Assembly (NCBI RefSeq): GCF_036967205.1
Contig: NZ_CP146022.1
Span: 1,922,001 to 1,986,000, forward strand
Direction of reading: 5' to 3'
DNA length: 64,000 nt
Source of the DNA: Streptomyces sp. Q6
Lineage (GTDB): Bacteria; Actinomycetota; Actinomycetes; Streptomycetales; Streptomycetaceae
Part shown: in pieces, positions 30,938-37,358 of the stretch
Numbering within the stretch: the first letter of the stretch is position 1
Layout of the letters: the number at the start of each line of letters is the position of its first letter
Program-made: the position numbers and the translations under genes
Notes under the pieces: model-generated
Told to the model about the DNA's origin: nothing
What the model saw: the letters and a program-made list of their open reading frames with translations, nothing else
Databases searched by the model: none

Positions 30938-31126
30938 GGCCCGCATCCTGCCAGCCGCGGGGCCTCGCGGACCGGGGCAGGTTAGTGCGGAGGCCAGGCG
31001 TCCGGGAGTGCACATATGGGCATAGATCCCCCTTCGGCAACGATTGGCTTGGGGGTGACGGGCACATTCTGATCTTCCAGTACTCTCTGGGTGATTTGTC
31101 ATGCACGTCGCCATCCGGGGGGAAAT

Positions 31127-31870
31127 ATGGCTCGTGACAACAAACCGCCGCATCGCCGCGCCCGCATCGCCGCGGCGGCGTCCGTGGCCGCGCTGGCCCT
31201 GGGGGGCACCGCGCTCGCGGAACTACCGGCGCAGGCGGCGGGAAAGCCGAGGGGGCACGACGTCTCCTCGCACCAGAAGAACGTCGACTGGAGCAAGGCC
31301 CGGAGCAAGGGGGCCCGGTTCGTCTACGTGAAGGCGACCGAGTCGACGACCTACAAGAACCCGTACTTCGCGCAGCAGTACAACGGCGCGCGGCGGGCCG
31401 GCGTCATCCGCGGCGCCTACCACTTCGCCCTGCCCCACCAGTCGTCGGGCAGGACCCAGGCCTCGTACTTCGTGCGCAACGGCGGGGCCTGGTCGCGGGA
31501 CGGCTGGACGCTGCCGCCCGCGCTCGACATCGAGTACAACCCGTACGGCTCGAAGAAGTGCTACGGCATGAGCAGGGGCAGGCTCGTGTCGTGGATCAAG
31601 TCCTTCAGCGACGAGGTGAAGCGCAGGACCGGGCGGCGCCCGGTGATCTACACGAACTACCACTGGTGGGCGAAGTGCACCGGCAACAGCCGGGCCTTCG
31701 CCGCCGACCACGCCCTGTGGCTCGCGCGCTACGACGAGAGCGCGGGGGCGCTGCCTGCGGGGTGGGGGTACTGGACGTTCTGGCAGTACGACAACGGCGG
31801 ACGTCTGCCGGGTGATCAGAATCTCTTCAACGGGTCCCTCGCGCAGCTCAGGAAGTTCGCCCGGGGGTAG
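31127..31870 (+). CDS. Secreted GH25 lysozyme (N,O-diacetylmuramidase)
   Basis: A 247-residue protein with a signal peptide (RRARIAAAASVAALALGGTA, cleavage near AQA/AGK) and a GH25 domain: GHDVSSHQKNVDW at the start, catalytic acidic residues in PALDIEYNPYG, and YWTFWQYDNGG at the end. Cleaves peptidoglycan glycan strands. ATG 31127 has a GGGGGGAAA site. The 3' end overlaps by 55 bases the opposite-strand read-through tail of the integrase. Confidence 0.93.
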   Translation: MARDNKPPHRRARIAAAASVAALALGGTALAELPAQAAGKPRGHDVSSHQKNVDWSKARSKGARFVYVKATESTTYKNPYFAQQYNGARRAGVIRGAYHFALPHQSSGRTQASYFVRNGGAWSRDGWTLPPALDIEYNPYGSKKCYGMSRGRLVSWIKSFSDEVKRRTGRRPVIYTNYHWWAKCTGNSRAFAADHALWLARYDESAGALPAGWGYWTFWQYDNGGRLPGDQNLFNGSLAQLRKFARG

Positions 31871-33753
31871 TCCCGAAGGGGGTCGCAAGGCCCGGCCGAA
31901 GGTCCCTGGAGCCCAGGATTCCGGGGATCGGGCCGGGCCGTCGCCGCGCCGAAACGGAGGCTGTCCGGCCACCTCCTGTCAAGCGGAGCACAGGCGCTCC
32001 GGATCGGGTCACCAAGGCGCCCGCCCCAGTTCATCTTTCGTTCCGTAAGGAGCCTCGGTTCCAGCTTCCCGCCGATCTCGTACTCGGGCAGTGAGGCAGG
32101 CCGCCCCCGATGGGTCTTCTCGGGTGTCGACTTCAAGTACACCCGGACATCGAGAAGTTCGATCAGGCGGGCCTTCTTGGGCTCGCTCAGCTTCTCCAGG
32201 CGGTTGCTCGCAGCCGCAGCCAGCGCCTGGAGGTCGCGGGCTCGTTCGGTCGCCGCCTCAGTCTCAGCCTGCCAGGCCAGCACCTCGGCCCTCTGCTTCT
32301 CCAGCACGGCCAGCTCTTCATTCAGTGGCTTCACGGTGCGCTCGGCGGCCTCGGCCGCCTCTGCTCCCTTGAGCCCGCGCTTGGTCGCCTGTCGGGCCGC
32401 TACGACGAGTGTCGTGTCGATCGTGTCGCTCAACTCGTCAATCTGGCGGGACAGTTCGTTGATCCGGTCAACATGGTTGACCTTGCTGTTCATGGCGACG
32501 CCCACCCACTCCTCGGCGAGCTTCTTCAACTTCTCCGCGTCCCCCAGCATCCCGACCAGGTCGTCCCAGACGGCCTTCTCGATCAGGTCTGCGTTCACCT
32601 GTGCACACGAGCAGATGCCCGCGCCGGCATACTTCGGCTGCTTTCCCGAACAGCGGTAACCGCGCAGATCCTTGGCCTTCACGTGGAAGCCCGAATAGTG
32701 CTTCCCGCAGGCGCCGAAGATGCGCTTCGAGTACGGATAGGACGGGGCTCCGGCAGCGTCCCGCTTCACCGAGCCGCGGGCCAGGGCCTCGTTCAGCTTC
32801 TTCAGCTGCTGCTCGTTGAAGGTGGGCTCCAGCGGGATAACCACCGACTTGCCGTAGACGGGGTTTCCGTCTCGGTCCAGCTTCGCCTTCTTCGGCTTGC
32901 GGAAGGTCACCTGTGCCTTCTGCACGGCTTCAGACTTCAGCTTGTTCAGTACGTTCTTGTTGGTCCAGCGCTTACCTTCGCGGGTCCACGCGGATTCCGC
33001 GTTCAGAACCAGGGCCACCTGTTCGCAGTCCTTGCCCTGCTCCGCGACGAGTTCGAGCATCCGGCAGAGAATGCCGTGCTCGTGCGGGTCACGGGCCAGC
33101 CGGGACAGCCCCCGCTGCCCCTTGTTCTCGATCATGTAGCCGTACGGCGGCCGCCCGCCGGTCCATCCGCCCTCTTCGGCCTTCTCCTGAAGGCCGCCCT
33201 GTGTGCGGTCGCGGATGTTCTCGCGCTCTTCCTCGGCATAGTCGGCGTCCTTGCGCATCTGACTGCGCCCGGCCGAAGTCGAGTTGTCGTAGTTCTTCTT
33301 GACCACGTGCACGTAGATGCCAAGGTCTTCCAGCTCCCACACCCAGCGCCAGAATGCCCTGCCAACGCGGCCGATCACCCGGCCCTCATTGACGCCCACC
33401 ATGTCGAACGGACGGGGTACCTGGCGCGCATCCTCCATCAGACGCTTGAGATCCGGCCTGTCCTCCGCCTCCAGGCTGCCGCTCAGCCCTTCATCGGCGT
33501 AGACACCGACGAACGCCCACCCCCTCTCGGCGATGCGCCGCACCACGCGCTTGCCGGAGTAATCGATGCCGTAGCCCTTCAGTTGCTCCTCCGTCGACAC
33601 CCGGAGGTAGGCGACAGCGCGGAGTTGACCGGGCCCGGCCACCTGGAGCACAGCACCGATGGACTGAAGAAGGGCCGCGCGCCTGACTCCGTCGTTCGTG
33701 GCCTTGGGCAGTCCCGTGTCCACGGCAACAGCCCTCGTGAGATCCTGCTTCAT
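31816..33753 (-). CDS. Large serine recombinase (integrase), reading through into flanking DNA
   Basis: A 645-residue protein as read. N-terminal resolvase domain (about residues 45-190) with nucleophile Ser in YLRVSTEEQ and arginines in NEGRVIGRVGRAFWR; recombinase domain (GRPPYGYM ...); zinc-ribbon domain with FGACGKHYSGFH, YRCSGKQ and GICSCAQV; then a long coiled coil (about 430-520). After RLLTERKMN (codon 575) the frame crosses the att core and adds 70 residues of atypical composition encoded by chromosomal DNA. At the other element end the same peptide ends ERKVN-stop, so the excised form would encode about 575 residues. ATG with AAGGGA site. Confidence 0.9.
   Translation of the reverse strand: MKQDLTRAVAVDTGLPKATNDGVRRAALLQSIGAVLQVAGPGQLRAVAYLRVSTEEQLKGYGIDYSGKRVVRRIAERGWAFVGVYADEGLSGSLEAEDRPDLKRLMEDARQVPRPFDMVGVNEGRVIGRVGRAFWRWVWELEDLGIYVHVVKKNYDNSTSAGRSQMRKDADYAEEERENIRDRTQGGLQEKAEEGGWTGGRPPYGYMIENKGQRGLSRLARDPHEHGILCRMLELVAEQGKDCEQVALVLNAESAWTREGKRWTNKNVLNKLKSEAVQKAQVTFRKPKKAKLDRDGNPVYGKSVVIPLEPTFNEQQLKKLNEALARGSVKRDAAGAPSYPYSKRIFGACGKHYSGFHVKAKDLRGYRCSGKQPKYAGAGICSCAQVNADLIEKAVWDDLVGMLGDAEKLKKLAEEWVGVAMNSKVNHVDRINELSRQIDELSDTIDTTLVVAARQATKRGLKGAEAAEAAERTVKPLNEELAVLEKQRAEVLAWQAETEAATERARDLQALAAAASNRLEKLSEPKKARLIELLDVRVYLKSTPEKTHRGRPASLPEYEIGGKLEPRLLTERKMNWGGRLGDPIRSACAPLDRRWPDSLRFGAATARPDPRNPGLQGPSAGPCDPLRDYPRANFLSCARDPLKRF
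32027..32043. other. Candidate attL core
   Basis: CAGTTCATCTTTCGTTC, inside the 3' part of the integrase frame. Left of it the DNA is chromosomal, right of it the integrase gene. Matches the right-end repeat at 15 of 17 positions. Confidence 0.65.
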
Positions 33754-33796
33754 GTCAGTCCCTTTCCGACTGGCCGGTCAGCCTTGGCTGTCCGGG

Positions 33797-33824
33797 CCCC
33801 GGGCGTGTTCGCAGCACCCCGGGG
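33797..33824 (-). terminator. Hairpin between small-gene chain and integrase
   Basis: CCCCGGG (33797-33803) and CCCGGGG (33818-33824) enclose a 14-base loop in the 88-bp space upstream of the integrase. It may end the upstream transcript or attenuate integrase expression. Confidence 0.45.
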
Positions 33825-33841
33825 TCACTCAAGTGGCCGTA

Positions 33842-34020
33842 TTATGCCGCCATTTCACTCTCGTCCGGGCCGAAAAAGATGGAGAGTACTTCGCGGAATG
33901 CCGCGTCGTCGGACTCAGTGATCTCCCACTCGATACTCACCCGGGGCCGCGGGTCGTCCTTGAAGTGCTCCCGCAGCCACTCCCCGCTTCGTCCCCCCGG
34001 GTCCTCGCGTCGTCCTGCAT
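33842..34020 (-). pseudogene. Small element protein, frameshifted at a C6 run
   Basis: ATG 34020 follows a clear AAGGGAG site and starts MQDDARTRG. The frame then breaks at the CCCCCC run 33993-33998. The next frame continues SGEWLREHFKDDPRPRVSIE and EWEITESDDAAFREVLSIFF to GPDESEMAA and TAA at 33842. One base restored gives a 59-residue protein. Small acidic proteins of this look precede integrases in several actinobacterial elements as I recall; an excisionase-like or regulatory role is possible but unproven. Confidence 0.6.
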
Positions 34021-34043
34021 GCCGTGCTCCCTTACTGGCCCGT

Positions 34044-34582
34044 CTACTCCTCGGCCCGCAGGCCGGGCTTCCACCGGGCTATGGATTCGGTGATGGGCAC
34101 GTCGATCTTGAAGACCTGCGGCCAGTCCGTGGGCCGCGGCTGTTCTGCTGACCACCGGCCGGAGGGGGCGACGGGAAGCCCGGGTTGCCCTGGAAGCCAG
34201 GGGCTCCCGGCACGGAGACGTTCGGGCCGAACGGCGGAGGGGTCACCGCGCCTGGTACCGGCGGGGCCTGAGGGACAGCAGGGGCGACCGGGGGAACCGG
34301 GCTGGCCCCGAGGCCCGAGGCGACGGCCGCAGCTGCCTTGATGGACGCCCAGAAGTTGCCCATGGCTGCGCCGGCCGCGGCCTCGTCCAGTTCCTGGAAG
34401 CCGGCGATGATCTCGCCCGCGATGTTGCCGCGGACCACGACCATCGGGCCGCGTCCGTCGAAGCTGATCGTGAAGCGGTGGTTGTGCGGGTTGCTCGGCA
34501 TCTCCGGGTACGCCGTGGAGTGGTCGCCCCAACCCTCCGCCTCGGCGTAGGGGGCCACGGTCTCGGTGGTGACGTCAGTCAT
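34044..34582 (-). pseudogene. Element-encoded hypothetical protein, frameshifted near 34132
   Basis: From ATG 34582 the frame encodes WGDHSTAYPEMPSNPHNHRF and FDGRGPMVVVRGNIAGEIIA, a helical region, then a low-complexity Pro/Gly linker (PPVPGAVTPPPFGPNVSVPG). It breaks after NSRGP. The other frame continues TDWPQVFKIDVPITESIARW and ends LRAEE at 34044. With one base added at 34131-34133 the protein is 179 residues. The layout (N-terminal fold, Pro-rich linker, VFKIDVP tail) recalls hypothetical proteins common on streptomycete integrative elements. Its start overlaps the previous gene. Confidence 0.6.
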
Positions 34583-34679
34583 CTGATCCCTTGTCTACGT
34601 TCTCGAAACGGATGCAGCCCGGGTAGTGGCCGCAGAACTCACAGCAGGTGCCGCAGTCGCAGTTGGGGAGGTAGGTCAC
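34575..34679 (-). CDS. Tiny Cys-rich element protein
   Basis: A 34-residue protein: GTG 34679, MTYLPNCDCGTCCEFCGHYP then GCIRFENVDKGSDD. Six cysteines in 17 residues (CDCGTCCEFC...GC) suggest a zinc-binding knuckle. Its GTG overlaps the corrected stop of the upstream gene (GTGA) and its own stop overlaps the start of the gene at 34582, so it sits in a tightly coupled chain. Confidence 0.6.
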   Translation of the reverse strand: MTYLPNCDCGTCCEFCGHYPGCIRFENVDKGSDD

Positions 34680-34806
34680 TGCTCGCCGTGGACGGCCCGG
34701 GAATGGGCCGCCCCTCGGCCTCGGACTCGAACGGAGCGCCACAGAAACAGAAGCGGCAGTGGTACGTGGCCAGCTCGGCCAGGCGGTGAATCAGGGTGCG
34801 GATCAT
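34676..34806 (-). pseudogene. Small CxxC element protein, possible frameshift near 34698
   Basis: ATG 34806 overlaps the stop of the WhiB-like gene (ATGA). It encodes IRTLIHRLAELATYHCRFCF then CGAPFESEAEGRPIPG, a knuckle HCRFCFCG. As read the frame runs on to a stop at 34639 (55 residues) over the next gene. Adding one base at 34696-34701 moves the stop to 34676 and creates a GTGA overlap with the downstream gene, giving 43 residues. The coupling makes the corrected version more likely. Confidence 0.5.
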
Positions 34807-35380
34807 GACTCCTCAATCAGGGGTGCGGGGAAGCCCGGGGCGTCCGGGTCGTGGCGGCGGCCCGGCCGGTCCGGGAACGGGCGCAGGGCCCGCGGTGACA
34901 GCTCGGGAAGAGGAAGACCGACGATCCCCGCGGCTCGCTCGTGCGCGGCCCTCTCGCGGTCCTTCTCGGCCTCATCGATCAGCTTCGACGCCAGGGAGGG
35001 CAGGACGTCGGACAGCGTCATGACCTCCCGGAGGGACGCCCCCCCCGGTCGCGGAGCTTTAGCAGCTCCCGGCCCCACATCAGCCAGGTCTCGGTGGTCC
35101 AGTGCTTGGCCCTCTTCGTCAGGGCCCGACGTGCCAGGTAGCGCTGGTACTGGTCCAGTCCGCCCCACACCCCGAACTCTTCGCCCGTGGTGTCGCGGCG
35201 GCACTGCATCAGGACCGGGCACCCGGCGCAGATCTCCTTGGCCTGGTCCCGCTTGGCCTGTGTCTTGGTCGCCGGTCGGCGGTTGGCCATGCCTCCCCCG
35301 GCGAAGAAGAGGGGAAGGTCTTCCTCCTGGCATGCGTGCTGCGGCCACCAGGGCCGCCGCACGTCGAAGAGGACGTTCAC
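34803..35380 (-). pseudogene. WhiB-like transcriptional regulator, frameshifted at a C8 run
   Basis: GTG 35380, MNVLFDVRRPWWPQHACQ. The four Fe-S cysteines are at about residues 17, 51, 54 and 60 (HAC; ICAGCPVLMQC) followed by FGVWGG, the WhiB turn. The frame stops early (GGRPSGRS) at 35018 directly after eight Cs on the plus strand (35039-35046). One more base leads into REVMTLSDVLPSLASKLIDE and a basic tail ending APLIEES at 34803, whose stop overlaps the next ATG. The corrected protein is 192 residues, long for WhiB but normal for element-borne ones. Confidence 0.75.
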
Positions 35381-35502
35381 GCCCGGCCCCACAGGGCCCC
35401 CGCCAGAACTCCGATGCCGGCGCCGACGGCGACCAGCGCCGTGTGCCACCAGTTCCAGCGGAACAGTTCCAGGCGGATGCGGTCGGCGATCTCCTCGCCC
35501 AT
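35377..35502 (-). CDS. Small membrane protein of the element
   Basis: A 41-residue protein: MGEEIADRIRLELFRWNWWH then a hydrophobic segment TALVAVGAGIGVLAGALWGRA. One amphipathic and one transmembrane helix. Its stop overlaps the WhiB GTG (GTGA), so the two are coupled. No known family. Confidence 0.55.
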   Translation of the reverse strand: MGEEIADRIRLELFRWNWWHTALVAVGAGIGVLAGALWGRA

Positions 35503-35505
35503 GTC

Positions 35506-35586
35506 TCACCTCCAGTGCGGCACCCCGCACATGACGAAGGCCGCCACGAGGGCGGCCAGAATGATCAGTTTCTGAGGTCTGTTCAC
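35506..35586 (-). CDS. 26-residue hydrophobic peptide of the element
   Basis: GTG 35586 encodes MNRPQKLIILAALVAAFVMC then GVPHWR: basic start, one hydrophobic helix. The stop is three bases before the next ATG. It has a plausible GAGGCGAC site. Very short, so support is mainly position in the chain and clean membrane-helix pattern. Confidence 0.4.
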   Translation of the reverse strand: MNRPQKLIILAALVAAFVMCGVPHWR

Positions 35587-35592
35587 GTCGCC

Positions 35593-35649
35593 TCAGTGCT
35601 TGAGGCAGGGATACGGATCACCGCAGATCGGGCACCTGTCGTCCTTCAC
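35593..35649 (-). CDS. 18-residue Cys-knuckle peptide of the element
   Basis: GTG 35649 encodes MKDDRCPICGDPYPCLKH with a CPICG...C...H pattern. A GAGGAG site is just upstream and the GTG overlaps the stop of the preceding frame (GTGA). Too short to identify. Confidence 0.35.
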   Translation of the reverse strand: MKDDRCPICGDPYPCLKH

Positions 35650-35867
35650 GGCTCCTCGCTCTCGTAGCGCGCCAGCTCCTTGCGCAGGCGCTCGTTCTCC
35701 TTCGTCAGCCGGTAACCAGCCTGGCTCCGGCCGGCCTTCAGTCCGGCCTCATAGGCCGTAGTGACATGCCTCTCAAAGGCGCCCTACGCGCACTGCTTCA
35801 CGAAGTCGTTGCCCTGCACCCAGTTGCTCACGGACTGCAACAGAGCGGCCTTCCAGCCCGGTGTGGC
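35646..35867 (-). pseudogene. Element protein remnant with in-frame amber codon
   Basis: An open frame GWKAALLQSVSNWVQGNDFV then KQCA ends at TAG (35784-35786) and resumes at once as GAFERHVTTAYEAGLKAGRS, QAGYRLTKENERLRKELARY, ESEEP to the TGA at 35646. Both halves look like one helical/coiled-coil protein in one frame, so a single base change produced the stop. No good start is seen upstream; a TAG at 35868 limits it. Confidence 0.45.
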
Positions 35868-35961
35868 CTAGGGGTCTCCTGACGCAAAGAGACCCCCGCC
35901 GTGACAGGGGTATGTGTGATCACACGATCGCTCTCCGTGCAGGTTGCTTGGGGTCCCCCGT

Positions 35962-35978
35962 CAGTTCACCTTCCGTTC
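35962..35978. other. Candidate attR core
   Basis: CAGTTCACCTTCCGTTC, direct repeat of the left end with two mismatches. On the minus strand it reads ...ERKVN-stop (stop at 35961-35963), the likely true end of the integrase in the excised circle. DNA to the right is chromosomal (pit leader). The rest of 35868-36062 holds no gene. Confidence 0.65.
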
Positions 35979-36062
35979 ACTGAGCAGCCGTACGTTCACG
36001 AAGGCTTCGGCAATCTGCCGTGGCCAGCGCCTCCGTACGCAACCTGAAACGGATACCCGGAT

Positions 36063-37358
36063 ATGGCACTTGATGCCACGCTCCTGCTTGCGATCGTGAT
36101 CGTTACCGCGCTGGTTTTTGATTTCACCAACGGTTTCCACGACACCGCCAACGCGATGGCGACGACCATCTCGACAGGCGCCCTCAAGCCGAAGACGGCG
36201 GTGGCCATGTCCGCCGTGCTGAACCTGGTCGGAGCGTTTCTCTCCGTCGAGGTCGCGAAGACCATCTCCGGCGGCATCATCAATGAGGACGGCCTCAAGA
36301 CCGAGGTCATATTCGCGGCGCTCGTAGGCGCCATCCTCTGGAATCTGCTGACCTGGCTGGTCGGCCTCCCCTCCAGTTCCTCGCACGCCCTGTTCGGCGG
36401 CCTCATCGGCGCCGCGGTCATGTCGATGGGCTGGTCGTCGGTGAACGGCGGCACCGTCGTCACCAAGGTGCTGCTGCCCGCGGTCGCCGCGCCGATCGTC
36501 GCCGGCCTCGCCGCGATGCTCGCCACGCGTCTGACCTACCGCATCAGCAAGAAGACCGACCAGAAGGCGACCGCCAAGGGCTACCGCGCCGGGCAGATCG
36601 CCTCGGCCGGCCTCGTCTCCCTCGCGCACGGCACGAACGACGCGCAGAAGACGATGGGCATCATCACCCTCGCCCTGATCACCGGCGGCGTCCTGAACCC
36701 CGGCGCCAACCCGCCCCTGTGGGTCATCGTCTCGGCCGGTGTGGCCATCGCGATGGGCACGTACCTGGGCGGCTGGCGGATCATCCGCACCATGGGCAAG
36801 GGCCTCACCGACCTCGCCCCGCAGCAGGGCTTCGCCGCGCAGACCAGTGCCGCGACGGCGATCCTCGCCTCCTCGCACATCGGCTTCTCGCTCTCCACGA
36901 CCCAGGTCTGCTCCGGCGCCGTGATGGGCTCGGGCCTCGGCCGCAAGGGCGGCGTGGTCCGCTGGTCGACCGCGACCCGGATGTTCGTCGCCTGGGGTCT
37001 GACGCTGCCGGCCGCCGGTCTGGTGGGCGCGGGCGCCGAGTTCCTCACCAAGCAGGGTCCGTGGGGCATCGGCCTCACCGCCGCACTGCTGGTGATCGGC
37101 TCCGGCATCATCTGGAAGCTGTCGCGCCGCAACTCCATCGACCACACGAACGTCACCGACGACGAGATCCGCGGTGCCGGGCCCGTCTCCGGTGCCGTCG
37201 AGGAGCCCGCGGGTGTCGTGACGACCGCGATCGCCGCGGTCACGCCGCCGCCGGTGGGCACGCTCGCCACCGGGGAGTCCTCCGAGGTGAAGAGCACGAT
37301 CCCCGCTCCGGCCCCGGCCGTTGCCGACCCCGCGCGCCCGGCCGGCGCCACGCTGTAA
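36063..37358 (+). CDS. pit: Inorganic phosphate transporter, PiT family
   Basis: A 431-residue low-affinity phosphate permease. The two inverted PiT signatures are present: FDFTNGFHDTANAMATTIST near the N-terminus (about residues 20-39) and GLVSLAHGTNDAQKTMGIIT (about 182-201). About ten membrane segments; the C-terminal 70 residues are a Pro/Ala-rich cytoplasmic tail. ATG 36063. A small membrane protein follows 16 bases later. The integrated element lies just upstream and may have displaced its native promoter. Confidence 0.95.
   Translation: MALDATLLLAIVIVTALVFDFTNGFHDTANAMATTISTGALKPKTAVAMSAVLNLVGAFLSVEVAKTISGGIINEDGLKTEVIFAALVGAILWNLLTWLVGLPSSSSHALFGGLIGAAVMSMGWSSVNGGTVVTKVLLPAVAAPIVAGLAAMLATRLTYRISKKTDQKATAKGYRAGQIASAGLVSLAHGTNDAQKTMGIITLALITGGVLNPGANPPLWVIVSAGVAIAMGTYLGGWRIIRTMGKGLTDLAPQQGFAAQTSAATAILASSHIGFSLSTTQVCSGAVMGSGLGRKGGVVRWSTATRMFVAWGLTLPAAGLVGAGAEFLTKQGPWGIGLTAALLVIGSGIIWKLSRRNSIDHTNVTDDEIRGAGPVSGAVEEPAGVVTTAIAAVTPPPVGTLATGESSEVKSTIPAPAPAVADPARPAGATL

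Follow-up and report, generated by a model that had tools for sequence, protein, structure and literature searches.

A probable prophage remnant at the start of pitH2 in Streptomyces sp. Q6 and its phage-like, PHO-box-bearing 5' segment

Organization of the pitH2 locus

A 64,000-nucleotide stretch of the Streptomyces sp. Q6 chromosome (NZ_CP146022.1, positions 1,922,001 to 1,986,000; referred to as the window and numbered from its first letter) was analysed around a serine integrase gene (int) that lies upstream of pitH2, which encodes a low-affinity phosphate transporter. Comparison with relatives shows that foreign DNA was inserted at the start of pitH2, that in the window and in strain KL109B (locus L010) the leader, the start codon and the PHO box upstream of the gene match phage sequence and so appear to be of phage origin, and that the left end was altered by deletion. 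The window thus probably holds the decayed remnant of a Streptomyces phage that was inserted at pitH2 codon 6 and supplied the gene with a substitute, PHO-box-bearing 5' end. The features on which this reading rests are:

31816..33753, minus strand: serine integrase open reading frame (ORF) as read, 645 aa, in which the frame reads RLLTERKMN-W; 32040-33753 is phage-derived and over 31816-32039 the frame reads through into host DNA, first intergenic and then antisense to the 3' end of a GH25 muramidase gene
32006..32043, plus strand: host chromosome, the original pitH2 operator region now severed from pitH2, reading GGGTCACC, GTTCATCTTTC and a residual GTTC; includes the left copy of a 17-bp repeat
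32040..32043: GTTC microhomology (4 bp), the deletion join between the host PHO box and int
32044..36077: remnant of a prophage of the L206/L341/L342 type, from the order of matches to the phages L339, L341 and L342
35964..35985, plus strand: PHO box carried by the phage, with the 11-bp units GTTCACCTTCC and GTTCACTGAGC; includes the right repeat copy and has the same place in L206, L341 and L342
35991..35996, plus strand: -10-like TACGTT, assigned by eye, kept in hosts and phages as TACGTT/TACGGT
35986..36062, plus strand: phage-derived pitH2 leader, in place of the shorter standard leader
36063..36077, plus strand: phage-supplied start codon and pitH2 codons 1-5 (MALDA); relatives start ATGGA
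36077..36080: candidate attR crossover CACG, pitH2 codon 6, common to the standard host, the window and L206 where phage-like sequence switches to host-like
36063..37358, plus strand: pitH2-type low-affinity phosphate transporter, an intact ORF with a chimeric start, 94% identical over 374 aa in KL109B

The integrase had been recognized in the initial annotation, and domain searches agreed: the product carries both domains of a large serine integrase, the resolvase N-terminal catalytic domain PF00239 (E 7.5e-27) and the recombinase zinc-ribbon PF13408 (32.7 bits, cutoff 25.3), and matches PHROG_95, annotated as integrase. The element is present once in its own 8.95-Mb genome. The other elements of that annotation were also found in place, namely the 645-aa frame, an imperfect 17-bp repeat (CAGTTCATCTTTCGTTC at 32027-32043 and CAGTTCACCTTCCGTTC at 35962-35978, differing at 2 of 17 positions), the reading ERKVN-stop of the right copy in the strand and frame of int, and the 575-residue int frame obtained when the ends are joined at CAGTTCA.

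A search with the joined flanks (31700-32033 plus 35969-36240) covered 295 genomes of the genus and 41 relatives, the window's own genome being counted in both; its best-scoring matches, not all matches, formed an aligned set of 47 same-genus loci (L048-L094). Every one of the 47 showed an uninterrupted PHO-box motif upstream of the phosphate transporter gene, and in every one pitH2 began at AAATGGA, 53-54 nt past the PHO box. The N-termini of the 22 starts that were read were MEHI (13), MEHL (2), MENI (2), MENF (3) and MESF (2). The window and KL109B started with ATGGCACTTGATGCCACG, giving MALDA-T (MALDA-TLLLAIV), and in the window this start lay 83 nt past the PHO box. The leader signature CAACCTGAAACGG was found in none of the 47 loci, and the stretch between motif and gene in the window was unlike that of every aligned relative.

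In S. coelicolor, pitH2 is described as PhoP-dependent, and the PhoP footprint there spans 64 nt and includes repeat units of 11 nt (PMC7866108). At 35964-35985 two direct repeat units of 11 bp stand side by side, each starting with GTTCA, which is the pattern used here to recognize a PHO box. The intact motif GTTCAYN5GTTCA occurred once in the 64-kb window (0.02 expected), the left copy being cut after GTTC, and the two copies of the 17-bp repeat resemble each other beyond chance because both are pitH2 PHO boxes. The motif before pitH2 was the only intact one in the window and in L010; no second was found in the 12.7-kb L010 locus. The sole intact motif at these loci is phage-borne and the pitH2 frame is open in both, which fits a working promoter kept after prophage decay.

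At the left junction, 32006-32043 aligned with the PHO-box region upstream of pitH2 in L048 and L049 as far as GTTC and no further, and the int DNA matched phage L342 down to 32040. The letters across the join were CTTCC-GTTC-ACCC in the host, GT-GTTC-CGTGAGG in KL109B and CTTTC-GTTC-CGTAAGG in the window. Since host homology extends to 32043, int homology begins at 32040 and GTTC is common to both, the natural end of int has been lost by deletion, and the 70 codons by which its frame runs on into chromosomal DNA, as first annotated, are read-through of host sequence. Where the window reads ERKMN, the integrases of L010, L206, L341 and L342 continue EH, so the RKMN of the window comes from host DNA. 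Lengths of 645 and 575 residues had been proposed as natural integrated and circular forms; this does not hold, the left repeat copy being the host PHO box fused to int at GTTC by deletion. KL109B had the same replacement leader and start at the same locus, with a differently deleted int (kept as TEHAA) and deletions of its own.

The insertion sits between pitH2 (start 36063) and its native promoter (host PHO box at 32027-32043). For the right junction, the crossover is most likely to have occurred at CACG, 36077-36080; it may lie a few bases further right, as the letters just beyond are common to phage and host.

Phages carrying a putative pitH2-type promoter

Viral contigs were scanned with an alignment of 21 integrases and the best 80 loci were kept. 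Among the matches listed was L206, with an integrase 65% identical over residues 28-571. Its int runs beyond the point where the window diverges, and is followed by a PHO box and another gene start, ATGGCACATGAGGCCACG (MAHEA-T). Against this 7.6-kb locus, window positions 36097-35955 matched L206 4641-4786 at 72% (E 2e-17), and the stretch was consequently no longer taken for host DNA. A scan with the L206 integrase returned five contigs, of which three (10.9, 36.7 and 15.1 kb) carried an identical integrase and two were distinct further phages, L341 (45.3 kb, 65% identical) and L342 (18.2 kb, 68%). L206, L341 and L342 are metagenomic phages.

L341 and L342 exhibited a PHO box, TACGGTC, a leader and an ATG at the same spot as L206, and L341 likewise read MAHEA there. 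In all three, the promoter segment was contiguous with int on one side and with phage genes, including a WhiB gene, on the other. Past the attP side of int, contigs of this type carried a WhiB-like gene and other sequence common to the window remnant; as their int runs on into this sequence, they show an uninterrupted attP. In the fetched viral loci (0.51 Mb, both strands) the motif GTTCAYN5GTTCA had six occurrences, always at this spot and in three distinct phages. A longer pattern for the promoter, derived from these phages together with the hosts, was found in five stretches of the viral collection, all from phages of the L206/L341/L342 type (five contigs). Over 35986-36074, leader identity was 69/85 to L342, 65/84 to L206, 63/88 to L341 and 80/85 to KL109B. 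In antisense orientation, the phage-borne promoter also overlaps the final codons of the integrase in its free form (L341 5760-5960, L342 5750-5955), so that PhoP could control int as well.

The order of matches along the element fits phages of this type. The remnant of about 4 kb consists of two separate phage arms, the int arm reaching to about 34098 and the arm from beyond attP beginning at about 34179, with the rest of the prophage missing. Its remaining features and the left neighbour are:

34079..34582, minus strand: phage ORF with no function assigned, homologues in L341, L342 and L208; its far end lies near the internal join
35018..35530, minus strand: WhiB-like phage gene (PF02467), homologues beyond attP in L339, L341, L342, L207 and L208
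35871..35896: inverted repeat GGGGTCTC...GAGACCCC, terminator-like, assigned by eye, between the PHO box and the phage genes; in L206 and L341 this place is taken by a different inverted repeat
31091..31870, plus strand: host GH25 muramidase gene (PF01183), left neighbour

From these data the following course of events is proposed. The serine integrase of a temperate Streptomyces phage would insert the phage at pitH2 codon 6. Beside attP the phage would carry a PHO box of two units, a -10-like element and a leader, together with a start codon and an in-frame version of codons 1-5, so that after integration pitH2 could still be expressed from the phage-borne promoter, most likely under PhoP, with the host PHO box stranded on the far side. 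Deletions would later have taken away the greater part of the prophage together with the whole attL and the natural int 3' end. One of them would have fused int, at GTTC, with the host PHO box stranded there, and so produced the apparent repeat pair and the 70-codon read-through. From the sequence we infer promoter activity, PhoP control of pitH2 and a benefit of this restoration to the lysogen.

Several observations weigh against this proposal. No intact pitH2 lysogen was found, and among 395 genomes of the family the leader was present only in the window's own. In L342 the putative core reads GAGATG in place of CACG, which may mean a different target. The core was not picked out as a palindrome centre by a simple symmetry test: the positions that outscored the best centre within 4 bases were, of 2000, 154 in L206, 140 in L341 and 25 in L342. 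An attP palindrome centred on the core had been considered from the symmetric ACGGAA/TTCCGT of L206, and was discarded as evidence on this low rank. The -10 and terminator assignments were made by eye. Lastly, the promoter runs antisense into int in the free phage, and could serve the phage instead.

It is common for phages integrating into tRNA genes to bring the missing 3' end with them. If the proposal is true, something similar can be done for a protein gene, with the phage replacing the missing 5' end and the regulated operator that goes with it; a promoter-proximal coding site would then be harmless to the host as an integration site, and phages would be able to domesticate a host regulatory circuit.

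The integrase of phage HK022 is a tyrosine enzyme, and that of the window a serine integrase. At torS/torT of E. coli, the HK022 prophage comes between a host gene and its regulated promoter, and torS is then driven by a phage promoter at the att site (PMC6814406). The pitH2 case appears similar, in that a prophage parts a gene from its native regulated promoter and promoter-like sequence lies at the att site; the HK022 gene, however, loses an IscR site and gets a phage promoter, whereas here the phage seems to bring along a second version of the host PHO operator and to provide the start codon as well. At the M. abscessus sites attB-12 and attB-13, the host gene can only be transcribed from a start inside the prophage (PMC8092301). 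The 11-nt direct repeat units upstream resemble those of the PhoP-regulated Streptomyces pitH2 promoter (PMC7866108), with a second copy here on phages. The takeover of host genes by phage promoters is already known; a partial literature search returned no report of a phage-borne copy of a host's own regulated operator at attP.

Integrase ends in free and integrated forms

The initial annotation had also proposed that attP overlaps the 3' end of int and that integration changes the C-terminus. A scan of genome contigs gave 15 loci, 12 of them in Streptomyces and one in Nocardiopsis, and 29 of 392 genomes of the genus (the window's own included) had a match at E <= 1e-60. Nine elements had paired ends. 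Their sites are presumably dprA (L171-L173), pnkp (L170, L003/L130), an acyl-CoA synthetase gene (L026/L129), a permease gene (L169) and a position beside a DUF4191-like gene (L166, L168). In all nine, covering five attB classes, the reconstructed integrase of the circle form ended across the crossover; for L026, in which the int frame is shifted upstream, the end was read in the attR-side frame. These ends place attP over the int 3' end in the relatives. The overlap thus stood for nine relatives at five other sites and is predicted for the pitH2 phages, and the 17-bp repeat as its core did not. Likewise, a C-terminus changed by integration appears to hold in relatives of this integrase family, by reconstruction; the window itself has lost its attL to deletion.

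When the L206 or L341 int was joined to pitH2 host sites at CACG, a GET-stop was predicted at five of six sites, with the last 33 residues lost; at the sixth the frame would run on for about 20 codons. The GET-stop hinges on the crossover lying at CACG.

The read-through tails of the relatives varied between sites. The prophage-form int was fused in frame to the 3' part of dprA in L038, L022, L023, L002, L036, L035 and L009, to that of pnkp in L003, L004, L006, L007 and L024, and to that of the acyl-CoA synthetase gene in L027, the host-encoded tails reaching several hundred residues. In the paired dprA and pnkp cases, an integrase tail was gained by the host 5' half. Selection for such in-frame fusions was considered and dropped, as other fusions were out of frame or antisense (L034, L040 and the sites taken to be DUF4191-side and HtpX-side), and no bias is claimed. 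In L040 (dprA) the int frame does not pass into the host gene, and in L041 it is open into a transporter-like frame, which we take to be MFS. The int frames of L040/L174 and L026 look shifted near the 3' end and may represent pseudogenes or sequence errors. The ends matter because prophage-form integrases of this family carry host-encoded tails and differ from the integrating enzyme; these elements permit a sequence-level test of serine integrase ends in the free and integrated forms.

A set of 16 free-form ends was compiled, nine by reconstruction and seven by direct reading of viral contigs. Excluded were phiHau3, L174 (its frame is shifted), L209 (incomplete), L211 (continues into host-like sequence), L155, L163 and L165 (attR unresolved) and relatives whose attR was not sought. 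Two alanines (-AA) closed 12 of the 16 (L171, L172, L173, L170, L129, L169, L207, L208, L215, L206, L341 and L342), the exceptions being L003, L225, L166 and L168. Among background ORFs with high G+C at third codon positions (GC3), integrases removed, 18 of 419 ended in -AA. As the elements are homologous and not independent, this enrichment is only suggestive. Work on mycobacterial integration-dependent immunity describes -AA ends as degradation tags, which are also present on some integrases (PMC8092301, PMC4557955).

These ends raise the possibility that the locus works as an integrase switch, in which an ssrA-like -AA signal of the free form is removed by integration, leaving a prophage enzyme of different stability or activity. 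Besides the enrichment, the similar -AA ends on integrases of integration-dependent phages (PMC8092301, in part) favour this reading. It is nonetheless doubtful, given the shared descent of the members, the four ends that lack -AA, the distant phiHau3 (27% identical), which ends in TV and would make the count 12/17, and a smaller background still containing integrases in which 15 of 116 ended in -AA. A combination with the proposed promoter function has somewhat better prospects, though it falls short of even chances: a single segment might repair the host pitH2 5' end with phosphate control on one strand and encode on the other the last residues of int (-AA), which integration cuts off. The conserved native tail (xFR...) may reflect a constraint on attP-arm DNA rather than selection on the protein.

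In excerpts on mycobacteriophage BPs and M. abscessus prophages, attP also lies in a phage gene whose C-terminus is altered by integration with removal of -AA; there the gene is a repressor and the integrase a tyrosine enzyme, whereas in the relatives examined here the gene would be the serine integrase itself (PMC4557955, PMC8092301, PMC9934374). The streptococcal IME_Spy2096_SNF2 has a recombination site within its serine integrase gene, and the available passage makes no mention of host promoter restoration or C-terminal exchange (PMC5357655). SSV1-type integrases (NitEve-E3) are also altered by their own integration, but in an archaeal element and with int split in two, where here it is re-ended (PMC6563490).

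A C-terminal DUF4096 domain (PF13340, an IS4/5-type transposase domain) was observed in the integrases of L022, L036 and L207; a domain search did not find it in the integrase of the window or of L206. L166 (about 16.2-19.4 kb) and L169 (about 16.4-19.7 kb) are very small elements of about 3.3 kb, possibly mini-elements or deleted prophages, with an integrase and a WhiB-like match nearby (L039, L046) and a size like that of the window remnant. A plasmid search with one relative integrase gave no match above 60% identity.

Other readings of the promoter and the repeat

The phage-borne PHO box might instead serve the phage, with PhoP under phosphate starvation driving an antisense RNA across int and the effect on pitH2 arising as a by-product. 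The promoter of L206, L341 and L342 is indeed aimed at the int 3' end on the opposite strand. However, in L206 and L341 it leads to a start codon in frame with pitH2 codon 6 onward, and two decayed copies retain exactly the promoter-leader segment before an open pitH2, which makes this explanation unlikely.

Slightly less likely again is that this host clade has the leader as its own and that phages captured it through faulty excision, in which case nothing was restored. The PHO box and TACGGTCCACAAG do look host-derived, the same letters occurring in host L054. The leader, however, holds a GVIxFR-coding segment with a counterpart on phages that lack the PHO box (L207, L225), so that part of the leader moved from phage to host.

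The reading first accepted took the 17-bp repeat for the attachment core, with attP extending over the stop of int and a change from 575 to 645 residues on integration. It drew on repeat and frames that are present and on joined flanks that match many same-genus genomes across the joint and looked at first like an empty site. It is now very improbable, and was dropped once the right flank had been matched by L206 and the starts of pitH2 had been compared in alignment: the sequence right of the repeat (35986-36077) is phage-like and not standard chromosome, and RKMN is host-derived. A junction outside the repeat in an empty-site strain had been named beforehand as a refutation, and comparison with element-free strains gave this outcome, the right junction falling at pitH2 codon 6 (about 36077-36080); the initial interpretation is thus partly supported.

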